Assembly (NCBI GenBank): GCA_012103255.1
Contig: WLXD01000002.1
Span: 558,001 to 622,000, forward strand
Length of the DNA: 64,000 bases
Source: Acidobacteriota bacterium
GTDB taxonomy: Bacteria > Acidobacteriota > UBA890 > WLXD01
Direction of reading: 5' to 3'
Shown: piece after piece, positions 37,734 through 47,485 of the stretch
Position numbering within the stretch: position 1 is the first letter of the stretch
How the letters are laid out: every line of letters begins with the position of its first letter
The notes under the pieces: model-generated
The model's database searches: none
The model's input: the letters and a program-made list of their open reading frames with translations, nothing else
Told to the model about the DNA's origin: nothing
Position numbers and translations under genes: made by a program

Positions 37734-38090
37734 GTGAAGCTCGGCCATACGATGATCCGCGTCCGTGACCTCGACCGTTCGATCGAGTTCTATTCAGGGT
37801 TCCTTGGTCTGCACGAGACGCGCCGTAAGGATCTCGGCGATGCCATCCTGGTGTTCCTGGGTGACGGCGAGTCTGACTACCGCATCGAGTTGACGTTCAA
37901 CAAGGACGGGCGCGACTACGAACTGGGTTCCCAGTTCGGTCACCTTGCCGTGCACGCCGACGACCTCGACGCGGTGGTCGCGCAGGTTGAAGCCGCGGGC
38001 TGGTGGTATCGGAAGTCTCCCGTGCCCGGCCGCTACATCTTCGTGAAAGACCCGGACGGCTACGACATCGAAATTCTGCAGAAGCGCTAA
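37734..38090 (+). CDS. gloA: Glyoxalase I (lactoylglutathione lyase)
   Basis: 118-residue VOC-fold enzyme. The metal ligands fit GloA: H5 (KLGHTMIRV), E52 (YRIELTFN), H70 (QFGHLAVHA) and E113 (YDIEILQK). It converts the hemithioacetal of methylglyoxal and glutathione to S-lactoylglutathione. GTG 37734 follows GGAG by six bases. At 118 residues it is slightly short but complete. No GloB is recognised here, though the MBL protein at 4739 is of a related fold. The last four bases overlap the convergent AttH-like gene. Confidence 0.92.
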   Translation: MKLGHTMIRVRDLDRSIEFYSGFLGLHETRRKDLGDAILVFLGDGESDYRIELTFNKDGRDYELGSQFGHLAVHADDLDAVVAQVEAAGWWYRKSPVPGRYIFVKDPDGYDIEILQKR

Positions 38091-39220
38091 TCGGGCCGTC
38101 CGTAGCCCGTGAGTTCTACGAACCCGCGACCGCCTACCGACATTCCTCCCAGCGAGCCTGTGGCCACCACCGCGCCTTCCCAGTAGCGAAAGCTCAGCCT
38201 CATCTCCTGGTTGGGAATTCGCGGAGCGACTTCGAGCTCGAGACCTGCCCCGGGTACGCGCAGTGTCCACGCGGCCGGATACTCGATCCCGTCGTCCGTT
38301 GTCCAGGTTCCGCGCGGTTCGATGCTGAAGTCATCGCGCTGAAGCGGTTGGACCGTACCGTCGGCGGCCACGTAAGTACCGCTGCTGTACTCGTCCGTCG
38401 TGCCGTCGTCGCGGCGCATGGCGTACAGCATCAGATCCGAACCATCGTCGAGCTGCAAAGAGAACCAGTCCCACCCCGCCTGACCTGGTTCGAGCACGCT
38501 CGTACTCCATTCCCGGTCGAGCCAGGCCGTGCCGGAAACCTCGAAGTCGCCCGCCGGTACGCGCACACTTCCCGCCGCCCGCCAGCGGGGCATGCTGTAG
38601 TAGTATGAGGCGCTCCCGGGCTCTGCGCCCTTTTGGCTCAGTCCATTGACGCCTTGAAGCACGGGAGGGCGCTCAGGTACGAGGCGCAGACGCAATGCCA
38701 CGTCGCCGGCTTCAGCCGACAGGACGACCGGGGAGTCCGCCTGTTCGGTGTCCTCGGCGACGATGCGCCAGTTCTCGAGCCACGCATCGAAACCTGTCTC
38801 GCTAGCTCCCGCGAGTCCGAGCGCGCCGCGGGCGAAGCGCTCAAACGGCCAGAAGTCGCCTCGCCGGAAATCGCCCACAGCGAAGTGACCCATCCAGAGG
38901 TCGCGCGCACGCCACCCTCCACCCTGACCCGGCGTCCGTCGTGGCAATCCCGATCGGAACAGCGTGAACTGGAAGCCGAACGCCTCGTCGTCGGCTCCGG
39001 ACAGATGGCCCGTGAAGTACCACCATTCGGTGCGATAGTCCGGATGGCTGCCGTGGTCCCGGGGAAAGCCGAACTCACGGGGTTCGAGCGCGCGGGCGAA
39101 ACCGTCGCTCTCCCCGCCCAGGACCTCTGCAAGATCGGCGGCCTGCGAAGGCACCGGCCCCGACGGCGCAGAGCAGCCGGCCAACGCTGCCAGAACAGCC
39201 AGAACCAGTCCGCGGGTCAT
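38087..39220 (-). CDS. AttH/CrtC-like lipocalin-domain lipoprotein
   Basis: 377-residue lipoprotein (signal MTRGLVLAVLAALAGC, lipobox LAGC). The mature chain has the AttH/carotenoid-hydratase-like double lipocalin pattern: YRTEWWYFTGHL, EAFGFQFTLFRSG, a middle YYSMPRW and GTAWLDREWST. Such proteins accompany FtsX-type ABC exporters (AttEFGH arrangement) and may accept or modify a lipid substrate; hydratase activity is not implied. Its ATG shares one base with the permease stop (TGATG). The last gene of the operon. Confidence 0.87.
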   Translation of the reverse strand: MTRGLVLAVLAALAGCSAPSGPVPSQAADLAEVLGGESDGFARALEPREFGFPRDHGSHPDYRTEWWYFTGHLSGADDEAFGFQFTLFRSGLPRRTPGQGGGWRARDLWMGHFAVGDFRRGDFWPFERFARGALGLAGASETGFDAWLENWRIVAEDTEQADSPVVLSAEAGDVALRLRLVPERPPVLQGVNGLSQKGAEPGSASYYYSMPRWRAAGSVRVPAGDFEVSGTAWLDREWSTSVLEPGQAGWDWFSLQLDDGSDLMLYAMRRDDGTTDEYSSGTYVAADGTVQPLQRDDFSIEPRGTWTTDDGIEYPAAWTLRVPGAGLELEVAPRIPNQEMRLSFRYWEGAVVATGSLGGMSVGGRGFVELTGYGRPD

Positions 39221-41739
39221 CACTCCTCCCGCAGCGCTGCGCCCGGCGGCGCGATGGTGGCGCGAACCGCGGGGTAGATCGCTGCCAATAGCGCCGCGAC
39301 CAGTGCCACCGCGGCGGCCTGACCTAGCACTCCCGGCGGCACGGTCATCTGCAGCGTCCATCCAAACGATCGCTTGTTGATCACGTGGATCATCAACCAC
39401 GCCAACACCCAACCAACGGGCAAGGCCAGTGCAATGGAGGCGACACTCATCAATCCCGCCTGTGCTCCGATCAGCGCTCTCAGCTGTCCCGGCGTAAAAC
39501 CGGTAAGCCGCAAGAGGGCGTACTCACGCGCGCGTTCCAGTTGTTGCGCGAGAACAGCGCCGAAGACCCCGAATGCGGCCACCAGAGTGACGAGAGTCTG
39601 GAGCACCGCGGTGATCCGAAAGGTCCGGTCGAAAATCACGAGCGATTGGGCGCGCAGCTCGGAGTTCGACACGACAACCACTTGAAGCGGTTGCAGAATT
39701 TCCCGAAGTTGACGCGCCACGCCGTCGCGGGTGGCGCCGTCGGCCAGGTGCAGCGCGAGTCCACTGATCAAGGGGTCGCGCCACAGGCTCGCGTACACGG
39801 AACGACGCATCATCACTTCGCCACGATCACTCGCATAGCTCACGTAGACTCCGGCAACGCGAAGCTCGAGGGCTCCTGAAGGGCTCGGCAGCGTGACCAC
39901 ATCCCCGACGGCAACCCCGCGCCTCTCCGCCAGCGGCTCGGACACCAGCACCTCTCCGCCCTCGAAGCGCATCCAGGCGTCCTCCATCGCCTGATTGCCG
40001 GATGGCTCGAGCAAACGGTAGGACTCTCGATCCTCGACCGCATGGCTTGGCGCGAGCACCGCGGTGGGCTCGGGTGACGTTTCCACGCTGATCGTTCGGA
40101 TGGTGGCGAGCCGGTCGACGCCTGTGAGGTTCGCGATCTCGGAGAGTTGTTCATTACTCAGTCGCAGCGTGGCACTCTGCCCCCGCGCCGACACCGGCGA
40201 CACGTACAGATCGGCCTGGAGCGTGTATCCCAGCCAGTCGATCAGCGTGGTGCGGAAACTCGTAACCATCACGCCGACGCCCACCACCACCGCAACCGCC
40301 AGAGCCAGCGCCGCCACGGCCACAGAGACACGGCCAAGGCCGACCGTGAGAGCACGCGCGGCCATTCTCCCTGGAGTACCCACAATGGCCCCGAGCAGTG
40401 CCGCTCCGCCCTTCGCGACAGCGCGGACGACGGTGGGTGCGAGGAGCGAAGCACCGAGAACGACCATGAGCAGGCCCCCGAAGGCGGCCACCAGATCCCC
40501 GCCACGCCAGGTTGCGAGCGCGAACCCCGCGAGACCAGCCAACACGCCGGCGCCTGCCAGGCCCGGATGGTTCACCCAGCCCGAATCGTCTTCAGCTGAA
40601 CGCATCATCGCAACACGGGGAGCGACGCCAGCGGCCTGCCGGGCCGGTGCAATCGCCGACACCAACGTCGCGAGAATCCCAAGGGCTGCCGCGCCAGCAA
40701 GCACGCGCGGCTCCAGCGCTACCTGTTCAACCGCCACGGCAAAGTAGAGATCGTTGATCGTTCGCGTGACCAGCCGGACCAGCCTGCTTGCCAGTGCAAT
40801 CCCGCCAGCCAATCCGAGCAGCGTACCCACTGTGCCAACCGCGACCGCCTCCGCCAGCACGAGTCTGAGAATCTCCCGCCGGGTAACACCCACCGCCCGT
40901 AGCGCACCAAACAACTCGCGCCGCTGCACCACGGAAAACGCCATGGTGTTGTAGATCAGGAACATTCCGCACAAGACGGCCAGCAGACTCATTGCTCGCA
41001 GGTTGAGTTCGAATGCCGCGGTCATCTGCACAGTGGTGTCTGCACGAGCTGCAGCTTCAACGAGACGAGCGCCGGATGGAAGTTCGGCCTGTACGCGGTC
41101 TCCCAGATCGGTGGCGTCTAGTTGTAGGTCGATACGACTGAGGCGCCCGCTCAGCTCCAGGAGTTCCTGAGCGGTCGCGATGTCGGCCACCACGGTGTCG
41201 GCCAGGGCGCTGCCGTCTCCTGGCACACGCCCAACCACAGCCAGACGAATCAGGCGCCCATCTACCGTGGCCTCGACAACGTCGCCGACGCTCCCCAGTG
41301 CCTCCGGCGCCAGCACGGCTCCCGGTTCGGTCAGAAACGCGTCGAGCGGATAGGCGTCTGTACCAAGCACCATCCCGAGATCGCCGCGGAACGACTCCGC
41401 CAGAGGGTCGATTCCGATAATCCGCAGTGTTCCGGAGGCCGCATCTTCACTGCGCGCGAAGCCTTCAACGATGGGCGCCGACTTCCTGATCCCGAGATCC
41501 ACCCGGAGGCGTCGGTAGAGTTCGTCCGGAAGGCCTGCGGTGCCAGCAACCACCTGATGCGTCGCGGTGCCCACCAGGCGATCGTTGGACAGCTTGAAGG
41601 CGCGCTGCGCCGACTCGGTGGCCAGAGCAACCGCCACGGCCACGGCAACCCCTAGTCCGACCCCCCCGAGCGCCAGCACCAACTGCCAAGGGTGTCGCGT
41701 GAGGTACCTGGCGCTCGTTCGGTTCAGGGTTCGAGACAC
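39220..41739 (-). CDS. ABC transporter permease with two FtsX domains (AttF/LolCE-like)
   Basis: 839-residue permease containing two FtsX modules in one chain. The first helix (PWQLVLALGGVGLGVAVAVAV) precedes a periplasmic domain, then an FtsX module with VQRRELFGALRAVGVTRREI. The second periplasmic region and C-terminal FtsX module contain RAREYALLRLTGFTPGQL and end IYPAVRATIAPPGAALREE. This arrangement fits AttF/G or ABC exporters acting on lipids and lipoproteins. GTG 41739 is one base beyond the ATPase stop. Co-operonic ATPase and lipocalin-domain lipoprotein support an outward lipid-transfer machine (inference). Confidence 0.9.
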   Translation of the reverse strand: MSRTLNRTSARYLTRHPWQLVLALGGVGLGVAVAVAVALATESAQRAFKLSNDRLVGTATHQVVAGTAGLPDELYRRLRVDLGIRKSAPIVEGFARSEDAASGTLRIIGIDPLAESFRGDLGMVLGTDAYPLDAFLTEPGAVLAPEALGSVGDVVEATVDGRLIRLAVVGRVPGDGSALADTVVADIATAQELLELSGRLSRIDLQLDATDLGDRVQAELPSGARLVEAAARADTTVQMTAAFELNLRAMSLLAVLCGMFLIYNTMAFSVVQRRELFGALRAVGVTRREILRLVLAEAVAVGTVGTLLGLAGGIALASRLVRLVTRTINDLYFAVAVEQVALEPRVLAGAAALGILATLVSAIAPARQAAGVAPRVAMMRSAEDDSGWVNHPGLAGAGVLAGLAGFALATWRGGDLVAAFGGLLMVVLGASLLAPTVVRAVAKGGAALLGAIVGTPGRMAARALTVGLGRVSVAVAALALAVAVVVGVGVMVTSFRTTLIDWLGYTLQADLYVSPVSARGQSATLRLSNEQLSEIANLTGVDRLATIRTISVETSPEPTAVLAPSHAVEDRESYRLLEPSGNQAMEDAWMRFEGGEVLVSEPLAERRGVAVGDVVTLPSPSGALELRVAGVYVSYASDRGEVMMRRSVYASLWRDPLISGLALHLADGATRDGVARQLREILQPLQVVVVSNSELRAQSLVIFDRTFRITAVLQTLVTLVAAFGVFGAVLAQQLERAREYALLRLTGFTPGQLRALIGAQAGLMSVASIALALPVGWVLAWLMIHVINKRSFGWTLQMTVPPGVLGQAAAVALVAALLAAIYPAVRATIAPPGAALREE

Positions 41740-41740
41740 G

Positions 41741-42415
41741 CTAGCTAGGCTCGTTCTCGAGGCGACCGTCCACGATTCGCCACCGCCGGTCGGCGCGCGC
41801 AGCAACATCATGACTGTGCGTCGCCATGAGCAATATTGCGCCGCGCGACGAGACAAGGCGCGTGAAGAGGTCGAGAACCGCCTCACCGGTCTCGATGTCG
41901 AGATTCCCGGTCGGCTCGTCAGCGATTACCAGCTCTGGTTCATGCGCCAGCGCCCGAGCGATGGCAACGCGCTGCTGCTCGCCGCCCGAGAGCCGATCAG
42001 GGAACGCAGTGGCGCGATCGGCAAGGCCCGTCTGCGTGAGAAGTTCCTCGGCGACGGCGCGGGCCTTTGCCGGGCCGTAACCATTCAGCTCGAGAGGAAG
42101 CAGGAGGTTCTCTTGCACCGATAGCGTGTCGATGAGATTGAAGAACTGGAAAACGAACCCGACTCGCCGACGCCGGAACAGCGTTCGATCATGCTCGCTG
42201 AGCACGTCGAGTCGCTGGTCGTTGAACCACACCTCTCCCGCGTCAGGCCGATCCACACCAGCGAGTAGATTGAGCAGGGTCGACTTGCCGGAGCCGCTGC
42301 GGCCGAGCAGTGCCACGAACTCACCGGCCTCGAGTGCGCCCGTCGCGTCCGAAAGGATGGCGTGGTCAACGCCCGCCTCGCGGTACGATTTGCGTAGGCC
42401 CTTGAAGCGGACCAC
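41741..42415 (-). CDS. ABC transporter ATP-binding protein (LolD/MacB-type)
   Basis: 224-residue ATPase with Walker [10 protein letters not shown] (about 38-46), Q-loop [12 protein letters not shown], signature [15 protein letters not shown], Walker [13 protein letters not shown] and H-loop THS. The sequence style is LolD/MacB (mechanotransmission type VII exporters). GTG 42415 lies two bases after the stop of the preceding gene; a start further 5' would be inside it. Powers the permease directly downstream. Confidence 0.93.
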
Positions 42416-42417
42416 GG

Positions 42418-43605
42418 CTATCTGGCCGCGGCGAGAACGTGTTCTATCAGCTCGTTCTGGTTCTCCGGCGCAAGCCATCGGACTACGACCACGATCTCGC
42501 GCGATGGGTCGATCCAGAGGAAATTCTCACCGAACCCGAACGTGCCAAACGATTCAGCAGGAGCCGCTGGCCATAGTGCGCTCTCGGTGTTGACTCGCCA
42601 AAGAAATCCCTGCGTCTTCTCGATCTCCGATGGGATGAGAGAAGCGGCGAGGTATTCGCTGGAGATCAGTTGATCCTCTCGCCACAACCCACCACGCTGA
42701 TACAACAGGCCGAAACGAGCGAGGTCGCGACTGCTGATCCATAGGCCCCCACCCCATCGGCCCGAGACAGCCACAGTCTCTATGTCCTGGTCGGCGATCT
42801 CGACTCCGCTGTCGCGGTAGCCCTGCCAACGCCAGGACCGGCTAGCGCCCAGCGGGGTCAGAACCTCGCGATCGATCACATCACCGAGGAACTCGCCCCA
42901 CACCAAAGTTGCCGACAGGCCCAGACGATCGAGTCGCGCTTCGTTCGGTTCCCAGACTGAGCCCGGAGCTTGTGGCTCGCGCTCCTCGATGCGGCCGGCG
43001 ATGTCCGGCCGGGCGAAGACCTCGCCCACCCATTCGCTGGTTTGCTGGAGCCCCTGGCGCCACGTGATGGGCGTGTTGTGCATCGACGCGTAGCCGTTGT
43101 CCGACACATAGCCCGCGACGGGGTCGTCGACAGACTGGATCATCCCGCGATCGACGGCCAGACCGATTGCCGTGGACAGCAGGGCACTCGCAACGTCGAA
43201 CACCATGTCGGACCGGGCCGTGTCACCCCACTCGGCAAGAATGTACCCGCGGTGGAGGATGATTCCGTTCGGGCCGCCGCGCTCCTTGAGCGGGCCGGTG
43301 AGCTCGAACTCGCCGTTCTGCGCTTGCAATGCGGCTGCCAACTCACCCGTGGGCGTGGCATTGGCTACCGCGAACTGAACGGCCTCGTCGAGGGAAGCGG
43401 CGTCCCAGCCGGCCTCCACCGCGGTCCGGATATCCCAGTTCGTGTTGCGGCCCGGGTAGTACGTCCCGAAATCGGCCGGATCCTCGATCTCCTCGGGCGC
43501 CACGATGTCGTTTTCCATGCAAGCCGCGCACAACAGGGTGAGCGTCACAGCCAACATGGGAAAGCGGCGCCCGCTACGACTCAGTGACCTCTCGCGCGAT
43601 GCCAC
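42418..43605 (-). CDS. Serine-hydrolase (beta-lactamase family) lipoprotein lacking the catalytic residues
   Basis: 395-residue lipoprotein (lipobox LLCAAC, C29). The rest follows the class C beta-lactamase/serine hydrolase subfamily ([56 protein letters not shown]). But the SxxK motif, normally in a context like FSVTKSFLST, reads [10 protein letters not shown]: no lysine follows any serine at the right spacing. The second motif, normally YND, is PNE (about 220-222). It should be catalytically dead and may act as a binding subunit. GTG 43605 overlaps the csaA-like stop by one base (TAGTG). First of the coupled export genes. Confidence 0.85.
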
Positions 43606-43955
43606 TAGCCCGCCCGCGTGCCGTTCGGCACATCTGCTTCAGGCACGGCCAGGCACGGCGTAATGCCGTCTTCGTAGCCGAGATCGAACAGCATGCCCTC
43701 TGAAAGCTCGCCCGCCATCTTGCGTGGAGCAAGATTCACCACGAAGAGCGCCTGCCGACCTTGAATCTCGGCAGGATCGTCGCGCTCCTGTTTGATGCCG
43801 GCAAGGATCGTGCGCTGGTGGTCGCCGAAGTCCACGCGCAGACGCATCAGCTTGTTGGACGCTTCGACCTCACTCACCTCGACGATCTGGCCGACGCGCA
43901 CGTCGAGCTTGGCAAAATCAGCGAATTCGATCTCAGGCTTGATCGGTGCGGTCAT
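43605..43955 (-). CDS. csaA: CsaA-like tRNA-binding domain protein
   Basis: 116-residue OB-fold protein of the CsaA/MetRS-C/Arc1p tRNA-binding group: LDVRVGQIVEVSEV, LMRLRVDFGD, RTILAGIKQE, ALFVVNLAPRKMAG and EGMLFDLGYED are canonical. CsaA in Bacillus is a chaperone-like secretion factor; tRNA binding is the basal property of the fold. At 116 residues the length matches CsaA. It heads the operon and is one-base coupled to a dead hydrolase lipoprotein, an unexpected position for a housekeeping chaperone. ATG 43955. Confidence 0.88.
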   Translation of the reverse strand: MTAPIKPEIEFADFAKLDVRVGQIVEVSEVEASNKLMRLRVDFGDHQRTILAGIKQERDDPAEIQGRQALFVVNLAPRKMAGELSEGMLFDLGYEDGITPCLAVPEADVPNGTRAG

Positions 43956-44107
43956 GACATCTCGCTCTTGGGCCCGGCGTCTCGTTGGAATAGGTGCATC
44001 GGCGTACTCCGCTCGAGGCTAGTTCTTACCTACCTAGCATACGGTGCCACGCGTCTGCCGTTGAGAGGCGACCTCAGTGGTGGCAAGCTAGGGGCACGAT
44101 TTCGAAA

Positions 44108-44124
44108 CACGGTCCAGAACCGTG
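44108..44124. other. Hairpin in the leader of the Ig/LVIVD operon
   Basis: CACGGT and ACCGTG form a perfect six-pair stem with loop CCAGA, 59 bases upstream of the ATG at 44183. The surrounding 43956-44182 region is a divergent promoter region with no other recognised feature. The hairpin may stabilise or regulate the leader. Confidence 0.3.
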
Positions 44125-44182
44125 CATCCTGCCGCGAGCACGTTTAGGCGAGCCTGCCCCGGCACAACGAGGTGATCTTCGT

Positions 44183-46240
44183 ATGAAGCGGTGGGTCCAT
44201 TCTCTGAGCATCCTTCTCCTGCTGGCACTGGCCGTGCCCGCGATCTCACAAGAACAGGCCGAAGGCCCGGTCGCTGCCGCGATCAAAATCGAGCCGACCG
44301 AAATCACTCTCGAGGTGGGCGAAACCTTCACGCTCGAGCCGGTGATCACGGACGCTGACGGCGCCGTCATCGAAGCGCCGGTTATCTACTTCTCGATGTC
44401 GCGTCGCCGCGTCGGCGTGAACACCGCCACGGGTATCGTCGAGGCGTATCGTCCCGGCATGGTTCAGGTGATGGCGCTGGTGCCAAAGCCCGGCGAAGCG
44501 TTCAGCCGGCGCAACGCCGCGAACATGGTTCGGACCACGCTGACGGTGCATGTTCCGGAGCCGCCCCTCGCGAGCGTCGAAGCCCAGCCGCTTCCGGCCA
44601 ACGTATACACCGGAACTCGTCTGCGCCTGCAGCCCATGGTGACGGACACCTCGGGCGCCGATCGCTCCGACTCGATGATCGCGTACTCGAGCAGCGATGC
44701 ATCCGTAGCGACGGTCAACGCAATGGGTACGATGACCACCCACGATGCCGGCTCGGCCACGATCACCATTCGCGCCAACGACGAAGTCGAATCGACGCTT
44801 GCCGTAATGGTGCAGCCCAACCCGACGGCTTCGCTCGAGGTCACACCGAGTCGTGAGTCGGCCCGCACAGGCGACGTCATTCACTTCGACGTCATGGCGC
44901 GCGACGCCTCCGGCAACGCGGTCCCAGATCTCCCGATCCAGTACGCGTTCCAGGGCCGCAACGTCAACCATGAGCTCGGCGACCCCGGTTCGGGATTGAT
45001 CACTGAGGACGGTCGCTTTGTGGCCGACCTGCCCGGCGAGTACACCATCGTTGTCGCCGCTGGGGCCCACACCGCCTCATCCGTCGTGGCGATCGAAGCC
45101 CGCGACGCGGGTCGCACGATCGAGGTACTCGGGCAGGGGCGCGTTTCCGACCGCGCCACCTCCGACCTCTGGGTCTGGGAAGGCCCTGACGGGCGCGATT
45201 ACGCCATGACGGGCACGCACAGCGCTGATGGCCACGCCTACTTCTGGGACGTTACCGACCCGGGCAACATGCAGATCATCGATACGATCCGCGTCGACGC
45301 TCGGACCGTTAACGACGTGAAAGTGTCGGAAGACGGAACGATCGCTGTGCTGAGCCGTGAAGGTGCGTCGAACCGCCGCAACGGCCTCGTGATCATGGAT
45401 GTCTCGGATCTGAACAACCAGGGCGCGCGTGTACTGGCGCGCTACGACGATCAGCTGACCGGTGGCGTGCATAACGTCTTCATCTTCCAGGATCACGTGT
45501 ACGCACTGTCCGCAGGCCAGCGCTACGACGTGATCAACATCGAGGACCCGGAGAACCCGCACCGCGTGGGCAACTTCGAGCTCGACACGCCCGGCCACTC
45601 GATCCATGACGTCTGGGTTACCGACGGCATCGCCTACTCCTCCAACTGGTCGGACGGCGTGGTTGCCGTTGACGTTGGCGGCGGCGGCATGGGTGGTAGC
45701 CCACGTAACCCCGTGGAACTCGGACGCACGAAGTACCCGAACGGCTGGAACCACGCGGCGTTCCCGTTCCGCAGCAAGTCCACCGGCAAGATGTACATGA
45801 TCGGTGGCGACGAGGCCGGTCGGAGCGGCGGGACGCCCGGATACGAAGGCGAACCTGACCGCATGAACGGCTGGATTCACATCTTCGAATGGGACGAGTG
45901 GGAGAACCCGATCGAGATCGCTCGCTACGAGGTGCCGGAAGCAGGAACGCACAACCTGTGGGTCGACGAGGAGAACGAAGTTCTCTACATCGGCTACTAC
46001 CAGGGCGGCTTGCGCGTGGTCGACATCTCCGGCGAGCTCCTGGGCGACCTCTATCGCCAGGGTCGCGAGATCGCCTACTTCCTGCCGTTCGACCCCGAGG
46101 GCTTCGTTCCCAACGCGCCCTTCGTCTGGGGACCGCAGCCCTACAAGGGCAACATCTTCTTCTCTGACTACAACTCGGGCCTGTGGGCTGTGCGCCTCGA
46201 CCCGCCGCTCGGCGACACCACCGCCGAGAGTCAGGAATAG
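44183..46240 (+). CDS. Exported protein with Ig-like (Big_2-type) domains and LVIVD-repeat propeller
   Basis: 685 residues: signal MKRWVHSLSILLLLALAVPA, then Ig-like repeats (about 30-120, 130-215 and 215-305) with Big_2-type wording such as SSSDASVATVNAMGTMTTHD. From about residue 310 there is an LVIVD propeller (AYFWDVTDPG, LVIMDVSDL, YDVINIEDP, LRVVDISG) with HNVF and HSIHDVW histidines. ATG 44183 follows GAGGTGATC; longer frames are leader. It is 30 bases ahead of the His/Met-rich YVTN gene, so the two are co-transcribed. A surface or periplasmic adhesion or binding role is plausible; no enzyme motif was seen. Confidence 0.87.
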   Translation: MKRWVHSLSILLLLALAVPAISQEQAEGPVAAAIKIEPTEITLEVGETFTLEPVITDADGAVIEAPVIYFSMSRRRVGVNTATGIVEAYRPGMVQVMALVPKPGEAFSRRNAANMVRTTLTVHVPEPPLASVEAQPLPANVYTGTRLRLQPMVTDTSGADRSDSMIAYSSSDASVATVNAMGTMTTHDAGSATITIRANDEVESTLAVMVQPNPTASLEVTPSRESARTGDVIHFDVMARDASGNAVPDLPIQYAFQGRNVNHELGDPGSGLITEDGRFVADLPGEYTIVVAAGAHTASSVVAIEARDAGRTIEVLGQGRVSDRATSDLWVWEGPDGRDYAMTGTHSADGHAYFWDVTDPGNMQIIDTIRVDARTVNDVKVSEDGTIAVLSREGASNRRNGLVIMDVSDLNNQGARVLARYDDQLTGGVHNVFIFQDHVYALSAGQRYDVINIEDPENPHRVGNFELDTPGHSIHDVWVTDGIAYSSNWSDGVVAVDVGGGGMGGSPRNPVELGRTKYPNGWNHAAFPFRSKSTGKMYMIGGDEAGRSGGTPGYEGEPDRMNGWIHIFEWDEWENPIEIARYEVPEAGTHNLWVDEENEVLYIGYYQGGLRVVDISGELLGDLYRQGREIAYFLPFDPEGFVPNAPFVWGPQPYKGNIFFSDYNSGLWAVRLDPPLGDTTAESQE

Positions 46241-46270: not shown

Positions 46271-47485
46271 ATGACCAAGCAACGCTATCGACCGAGGGTT
46301 CTCGAACCCGGCGTGATCATCGCCGCACTTGCCACACTGGCGCTTATCGTCACGACCGCCGTTGCGGTCGTGACGCCGCGCCAGGCCTCGGCGCAGAACG
46401 GCACGTACTGGCTCTACGTCGCAGCGGAGTCTGACGACGTCGTCGAGAAGTTGGCGTTCACGCCTGGGGGCGGGTTCCGGCTCGACAAGAGCATCCCCGT
46501 CGGCATCTGGCCGACGGAGACGGAGGGCCCTCACGGTCTCGCGATCTCGCCGGACGGCGAGCACTGGTACGTCACCATCGCGCACGGCAACCCGTTCGGA
46601 CTGCTGTTCAAGTACGAGACCGCCGACGACCTGTACGTCGCCGACACGACGCTTGGGCTCTTTCCTGCCACGATGACGATCTCGCCGAGCACGGGACTCC
46701 TGTTCGCGGCGAACTTCAACCTGCACGGCGACCACGTCCCGAGCACGATCTCCGTCGTCGAGACGGAATCGATGACCGAGGTGGCGCAGATTCCTACCGG
46801 CGTCATGCCACACGGATCGCGGATGAATCCGCAGGGCAGCAGGCAGTACAGCGTCGCGATGATGAACGACGAACTGCGCGAGATCGACGCCTACAAACTC
46901 ACCACAAGCCGTGTGCTCCCTCTGTCGGAGAACGCTCCGTCGTGGCAGCACTACCAGGAAACTGGAAACGGTCTGATGGATGATTCGCATGCCATGGGCG
47001 ATCACCAGATGGCCGGCATGGAAGGTCACCACGAGATGCAGCCGCCGCTGGTGAAGCCCACCTGGGCCACGCCGGTGACGCCGCAGGGCAAGGTATACGT
47101 CGCCGGCAACGGCAACGCGACGATCTATGAGATCGATGTCGAAGAGTGGGCGGTCTCGCGCACGTTCGACGACACCGGCAAGGGCGTTTACAACCTCGAC
47201 GTAACCCCAGACGGCAAGATCCTCGTCGGCACATACAAGAGCGACCGAGGCGTTGGCATCTGGAGCACGGAGACGGGCGAAGAGCTCGCGCGCATCCCGA
47301 CGATTCGGCCGATCCCGCACGGCGTGGTGATCTCCCCGGATGGGAAGTTCGCCTTCGTATCCATCGAGGGTATCGGCGGCGAACCCGGCTCGGTCGAGGC
47401 CTACTCGCTGGAATCCTTCGAACGTGTCGCCAACATCGACATCGCCAAGCAGGCCGGCGGAATCGTCTTCTGGAAGGCCGAGTAG
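46271..47485 (+). CDS. YVTN/YncE-like beta-propeller with His/Met-rich insert
   Basis: 404 residues with an N-terminal membrane anchor or signal (about 12-38). It is a YVTN-type seven-bladed propeller with PHGLAISPDGEHWYV, PHGSRMNPQGSR, PHGVVISPDGKFAFV repeats. Between blades, at about residues 238-257, is an insert with several His and Met (SHAMGDHQMAGMEGHHEM), the kind of sequence that binds Cu(I/II) or other soft metals. The conserved PHG triad in successive blades resembles nitrous-oxide-reductase-like and copper-associated propellers. No PQQ or haem motif is seen. Co-operonic with the LVIVD protein. Confidence 0.85.
   Translation: MTKQRYRPRVLEPGVIIAALATLALIVTTAVAVVTPRQASAQNGTYWLYVAAESDDVVEKLAFTPGGGFRLDKSIPVGIWPTETEGPHGLAISPDGEHWYVTIAHGNPFGLLFKYETADDLYVADTTLGLFPATMTISPSTGLLFAANFNLHGDHVPSTISVVETESMTEVAQIPTGVMPHGSRMNPQGSRQYSVAMMNDELREIDAYKLTTSRVLPLSENAPSWQHYQETGNGLMDDSHAMGDHQMAGMEGHHEMQPPLVKPTWATPVTPQGKVYVAGNGNATIYEIDVEEWAVSRTFDDTGKGVYNLDVTPDGKILVGTYKSDRGVGIWSTETGEELARIPTIRPIPHGVVISPDGKFAFVSIEGIGGEPGSVEAYSLESFERVANIDIAKQAGGIVFWKAE

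Follow-up and report, generated by a model that had tools for sequence, protein, structure and literature searches.

CrtC/AttH-type lipocalin proteins are reported to have a predicted association with LolD-type ABC proteins and lipoproteins, known from genome context (NE1406; PMC2954199). The locus described below joins genes of this kind to a protein of the PF00144 superfamily, which holds the class C beta-lactamases and the family VIII esterases. Among the papers listed on pseudoenzymes of that superfamily, none described a dead member of the subfamily, which does not prove that none is in print. The protein studied here is predicted to have the fold of these enzymes and lacks their catalytic residues, and its orthologues in the same operon retain them.

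Organization of the Operon

The window, i.e., the whole analyzed stretch of 64,000 nucleotides from an Acidobacteriota bacterium (contig WLXD01000002.1; genome G000, 95% complete), contains a five-gene minus-strand operon in the order CsaA-like, hydrolase, ABC, FtsX, and CrtC/AttH, with the hydrolase-fold gene in second place (Table 1). PF00144 was the sole Pfam match of the 395-residue protein (40.2 bits, against a gathering cut-off of 27), placing it in this fold family.

Table 1. Features of the hydrolase-containing operon and codons at the catalytic positions. Coordinates are those of the window.
Feature	Position	Strand	Remarks
CsaA/MetG-C-terminal-like tRNA-binding domain protein, 116 aa, operon gene 1	43605..43955	(-)	PF01588; 87% identical in G002
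PF00144 serine-hydrolase-fold protein without Ser/Lys/Tyr	42418..43605	(-)	395 aa, no internal stop
LolD/MacB-type ABC ATPase	41741..42415	(-)	PF00005; LolD-like, below equivalog cut-off
Duplicated FtsX-type permease with MacB-like periplasmic domain, 839 aa from coupled GTG	39220..41739	(-)	PF02687, PF12704
CrtC/AttH-like two-domain lipocalin-type protein	38087..39220	(-)	PF07143 and PF17186
Codon GAC (D137) at catalytic Ser position	43195..43197	(-)	AGC/AGT in G002/G003
Codon AGT (S140) at catalytic Lys position	43186..43188	(-)	AAG in G002/G003
Codon CCG (P220) at catalytic Tyr position	42946..42948	(-)	TAC in G002/G003

As the original prediction had noted, the gene is tightly joined to its neighbors, and all junctions of the operon are one-base overlaps or gaps of one or two bases: the stop of the CsaA-like gene overlaps the hydrolase start by one base (TAGTG), two bases lie between the hydrolase stop and the GTG start of the ABC gene, one base separates the ABC stop from the GTG start of the FtsX gene, and the FtsX stop overlaps the CrtC start by one base (TGATG). 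Two divergently transcribed neighbors, 43994-46240(+), whose product carries a Big_2 domain, and 46271-47485(+), are 76% and 79% identical to their counterparts in G002, a genome of the same genus, where their order is conserved.

The N-terminus (43519-43605(-)) consists of a hydrophobic stretch followed by a Cys residue, in ACMEN, that is common to G002. The Cys stands in the context LLCAAC in the window protein and HVAC in G002, and the 14 protein letters that follow are common to both. It is plausible from these features that the protein is a lipoprotein, although the lipobox departs from the canonical form at the third position before the Cys.

Loss of the Catalytic Residues

In an alignment with 37 homologues, D137, S140, and P220 align with the catalytic Ser, Lys, and Tyr, in agreement with the original prediction that SxxK and YND are replaced. 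Ser and Lys are kept in 37/37 other homologues of the subfamily, and Tyr in all 35 that cover the site, as two fragments (L058 and L059, also left out of the tree) end before it. These counts leave out L029 and L031, whose contigs are identical to L015 and L016, and the distant, partial matches L022 and L023, which read SMGK and YSD. A search of 396 genomes of the phylum, with motifs checked in 30 of the 54 matched places, gave 27 further rows other than G000, G002, and G003, and all 27 keep the three residues (3 of these 27 genomes repeat the 37-homologue alignment). SxxK is also kept in the 15 other PF00144 proteins of the window genome. The protein therefore has neither the SxxK (D137, S140) nor the catalytic Tyr (P220; YND in the subfamily) of active serine hydrolases of the class C beta-lactamase or family VIII esterase type. 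The dead motifs, whose conservation among the closest homologues had been proposed as a check, were present in one genome only, and the aligned homologues are intact.

Several sources of error were considered. A misalignment concealing an SxxK was rejected: the flanks align without gaps, no SxxK lies in register, and the codons can be read directly. Frameshift or assembly damage is unlikely, as the frame is open throughout and the catalytic codons are each off by two or three bases. Relative to AGC/AGT, AAG, and TAC in the relatives, the Ser, Lys, and Tyr codons differ by 2, 2, and 3 bases, respectively, so that a single recent event probably does not account for the loss. Nor was there support for an intact copy at another locus having taken over, since the 95% complete genome contains no second close homologue, the next best match scoring 35 bits.

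The view that the whole subfamily framework is kept was roughly right, but erosion extends beyond the catalytic residues. Four further invariant positions are altered (D222E, N226D, G280V, and G281S), and of the 94 columns conserved at ≥90%, the window protein keeps 70, whereas every other sequence keeps 91-100% of them. Judged from these alignments, the loss of Ser, Lys, and Tyr is real and unique to the branch of the window species among the genomes that could be seen. Catalysis of the usual kind is very probably absent from the protein, and with these residues lost, no acyl-enzyme chemistry would be expected of it.

Orthologues in the Same Operon and Spread of the Exporter Unit

The whole operon is carried by G002 (L015; matching Acidobacteriota MAG OFTM26, JAJCXT010000006.1), with identities to the window of 87% for CsaA, 57-58% for the hydrolase, 68% for ABC, 59% for FtsX, and 54% for CrtC. 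In G003, of the same family (L016; matching JACZXM010000102.1), the hydrolase, 50% identical to the window protein, adjoins ABC-FtsX-CrtC on a contig that breaks off within the hydrolase gene. The sequences FSVTKSFLAT and WEYNDVRVN occur in both hydrolases, with SVTK and YND intact. Such same-operon homologues with intact SxxK and Tyr are what the original prediction had named as refuting it, being the sign of a lineage-specific loss.

Between G002 and G003, the hydrolase is 77% identical, compared with 60% for ABC, 57% for FtsX, and 50% for CrtC, at similar silent-site divergence. The hydrolase is thus far better conserved than the three genes that follow it, and the intact enzyme seems to be of importance to these bacteria. 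There was no sign that gene transfer accounts for this likeness, four-fold site identity being 0.44 for the hydrolase and 0.38-0.44 for the other operon genes.

The exporter unit also occurs without the hydrolase. In G007, of the same order, the ORF that precedes the ABC gene of ABC-FtsX-CrtC is unrelated, and the hydrolase is thus not present wherever the unit is. G008 has ABC-FtsX-CrtC on a contig in which 352 bases precede the ABC match, and a gene other than the hydrolase stands after its CsaA-like gene; a search of this genome (81% complete) detected no hydrolase homologue at E<=1e-10. In the scan of named genomes, an ABC gene was adjacent in only 2 of 32 loci, a lower bound because several contigs are short, and these two loci, L029 and L031, are G002 and G003 again. 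When the scan was queried with the window protein alone, 0 of 36 stretches encoded a relative. Neither a hydrolase nor an FtsX homologue was detected in G001 (same genus, 92% complete) at the thresholds used, and the operon may be dispensable there or lie in an assembly gap. G001 (L073) keeps a 55% identical homologue of the 43994-46240 gene.

Accelerated Evolution and Remaining Constraint

In a tree of 36 proteins, the window protein was sister to that of G002 (support 100/98); this placement is less sure because the program marked the G000 branch as long, but it is supported by gene order. The end branch of G000 was 1.19, about 33-fold longer than that of G002 (0.036), with a median of 0.22. 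With G003 as the outgroup, 79 lineage-specific amino acid changes were assigned to G000 and 7 to G002, and three farther outgroups gave 76:17, 63:21, and 60:17.

Fast evolution of the whole genome was not supported by the controls, as the G000:G002 ratios were 37:34, 39:31, and 43:32 for CrtC, and 23:20 and 16:14 for two flanking genes outside the operon. A mild operon-wide effect does exist. The FtsX permease evolved about two-fold faster in G000 (115:58, 103:50, and 93:54 with three outgroups), its extra changes being distributed over the length of the permease and most pronounced at residues 351-400 (17:5); CsaA gave 5:0 (p 0.025) and ABC 16:14, 23:11, and 23:10 (p 0.04 and 0.02 for the latter two outgroups).

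Silent sites are saturated (four-fold site identity 0.30-0.52). G002 and G003 nevertheless share 77% of hydrolase residues at a four-fold identity of 0.44, compared with 58% between G000 and G002, which points to strong constraint on the intact enzyme, largely lifted in G000. The branch omegas, which this saturation makes rough, were 0.112 for G000, where omega = 1 was rejected (2dL 39.9), and 0.026 for G002, a difference that reached only p 0.083. The mean BLOSUM62 score of the 79 changes in G000 was +0.03, compared with -0.48 to -1.00 in neutral sets, and was reached in 0-3 of 1000 neutral samples under eight settings; like omega, this measure of conservatism averages the whole G000 branch, part of which predates the loss. 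The hydrophobic columns are kept at 84 of 88 positions, and 25 of the 29 altered ones are still hydrophobic, compared with an expected fraction of 0.47 (p 1.7e-5). By conservation class, from most to least conserved, 12/64, 18/60, 26/78, and 22/75 positions changed, which is a weak gradient. The codon-position GC of the gene resembles that of its neighbors. With 72 neutral missense changes, about three nonsense changes would be expected in the 395 codons and none was found (P(0) 0.045); by itself, the absence of stops lends weak support to function.

The gene had been said not to be decaying on account of its tight junctions. It is indeed not an obvious pseudogene, with an open frame, a kept core, and an omega below 1, but the junctions are no proof, since close spacing is also found in the G002 operon with its intact hydrolase and may be inherited.

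Predicted Fold

An AlphaFold model built on 33 sequences had a mean pLDDT of 85.5 and predicted a confident beta-lactamase fold, guided by intact homologues; 33 of 38 rows of the alignment were used (L020, L052, L058, L059, and L060 were left out), and a 3-row alignment gave a pLDDT of 30.9. On this predicted model, the protein belongs to PF00144 by three-dimensional fold as well. The best solved match with VIA-align was Lsa45 (8dc1; Z 29.7, rmsd 2.5 Å over 285 residues), followed by PIB-1 (8rlj; Z 29.2), EstG (7u1c; Z 29.1), and then family VIII esterases and NylB-type hydrolases. Foldseek returned the same group, and sequence profiles matched Lsa45, 8rlj, and NylB-type hydrolases. The fold of a pseudoenzyme is thus retained by prediction, with the catalytic residues lost.

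Discussion

Taken together, these data suggest that the window protein is probably a lineage-specific pseudoenzyme, in which Ser, Lys, and Tyr were lost on the branch of the window species and the protein would stay folded and be used without catalysis. The best reading is a folded pseudoenzyme under relaxed selection with a putative non-catalytic use. An envelope serine hydrolase with the class C beta-lactamase/family VIII esterase fold would have joined the CsaA-like/ABC-FtsX-CrtC operon in the ancestor of the bacterial family. It stayed intact and under strong constraint in G002 and G003, and on the lineage leading to the window species the three residues were lost as each of their codons changed at two or three bases. 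The dead protein may still be made and folded and, with less certainty, exported; its non-catalytic use would most likely be the binding of the old pocket ligand in the envelope.

Alternatively, the enzyme may have become useless in this species and, with its active site lost, may be drifting slowly toward a pseudogene, the frame staying open by chance or for the sake of the coupled ABC gene. The length of the end branch, the weak gradient across conservation classes, and the many conserved columns lost are all consistent with such a decay, and the coupled ABC junction offers a reason for an open frame in a protein without function. From the one genome that carries the dead form, we nevertheless consider it rather unlikely, given the kept hydrophobic core, the conservative substitutions, and the omega below 1, together with the lack of stops and a codon-position GC like that of the neighbors. 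It is also conceivable that catalysis now proceeds by another arrangement, for instance through D137 and S140, since two of the catalytic positions still hold polar residues; the change of the catalytic Tyr to Pro and the alteration of other invariant positions make this highly improbable.

The original prediction took the dead fold for a subunit of the adjoining ABC exporter, serving in binding or as a chaperone. The position in the operon with its short junctions fits this idea, and co-adaptation could explain why FtsX is also faster in this lineage. However, the orthologues of G002 and G003 have intact catalytic motifs in the same operon, and the exporter unit occurs without the gene in G007 and probably in G008. 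Catalysis was thus lost on the branch of the window species, and the data do not point to an exporter subunit; the rarity of an adjacent ABC gene in the scanned loci and the diffuse distribution of the extra FtsX changes also argue against it, and we regard it as improbable. A related possibility, which we also hold to be improbable, is that after the loss the fold was retained for ligand binding in an envelope lipoprotein. This lipoprotein would pass the former substrate on to the ABC-FtsX-CrtC exporter or regulate it, and the permease would have co-adapted. From the comparison of genomes, the locus looks like a case in which an enzyme was lost locally, rather than a new and conserved component of an exporter.

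The pseudoenzyme reading makes this a clean natural case of the passage from enzyme to pseudoenzyme, with the same operon and position, the motifs intact in the sister genome and dead here. The rate jump is far larger in the hydrolase gene than in its neighbors, which offers a practical way to study why an enzyme is retained once its catalysis is gone. Present evidence does not make it a new exporter component; it is a tidy but modest case in a known superfamily.

Comparison with Known Systems

Lsa45 (8dc1), PIB-1 (8rlj), EstG (7u1c), and the NylB-type hydrolase (1wyb) are alike in fold to the predicted model of the window protein over residues ~52-395 (Z 26-30) but only 17-20% identical to it. 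The window protein differs from the PF00144 class C beta-lactamase/family VIII esterase superfamily in being without the catalytic Ser, Lys, and Tyr. The operon orthologues of G002 and G003 occupy the same position beside ABC-FtsX-CrtC and, unlike the window protein, both keep SVTK and YND. The three genes downstream of the hydrolase are of the same kind as the CrtC/AttH and LolD-like ABC system of the NE1406 context (PMC2954199), whereas here a PF00144 protein was detected in the operon only in family f1.
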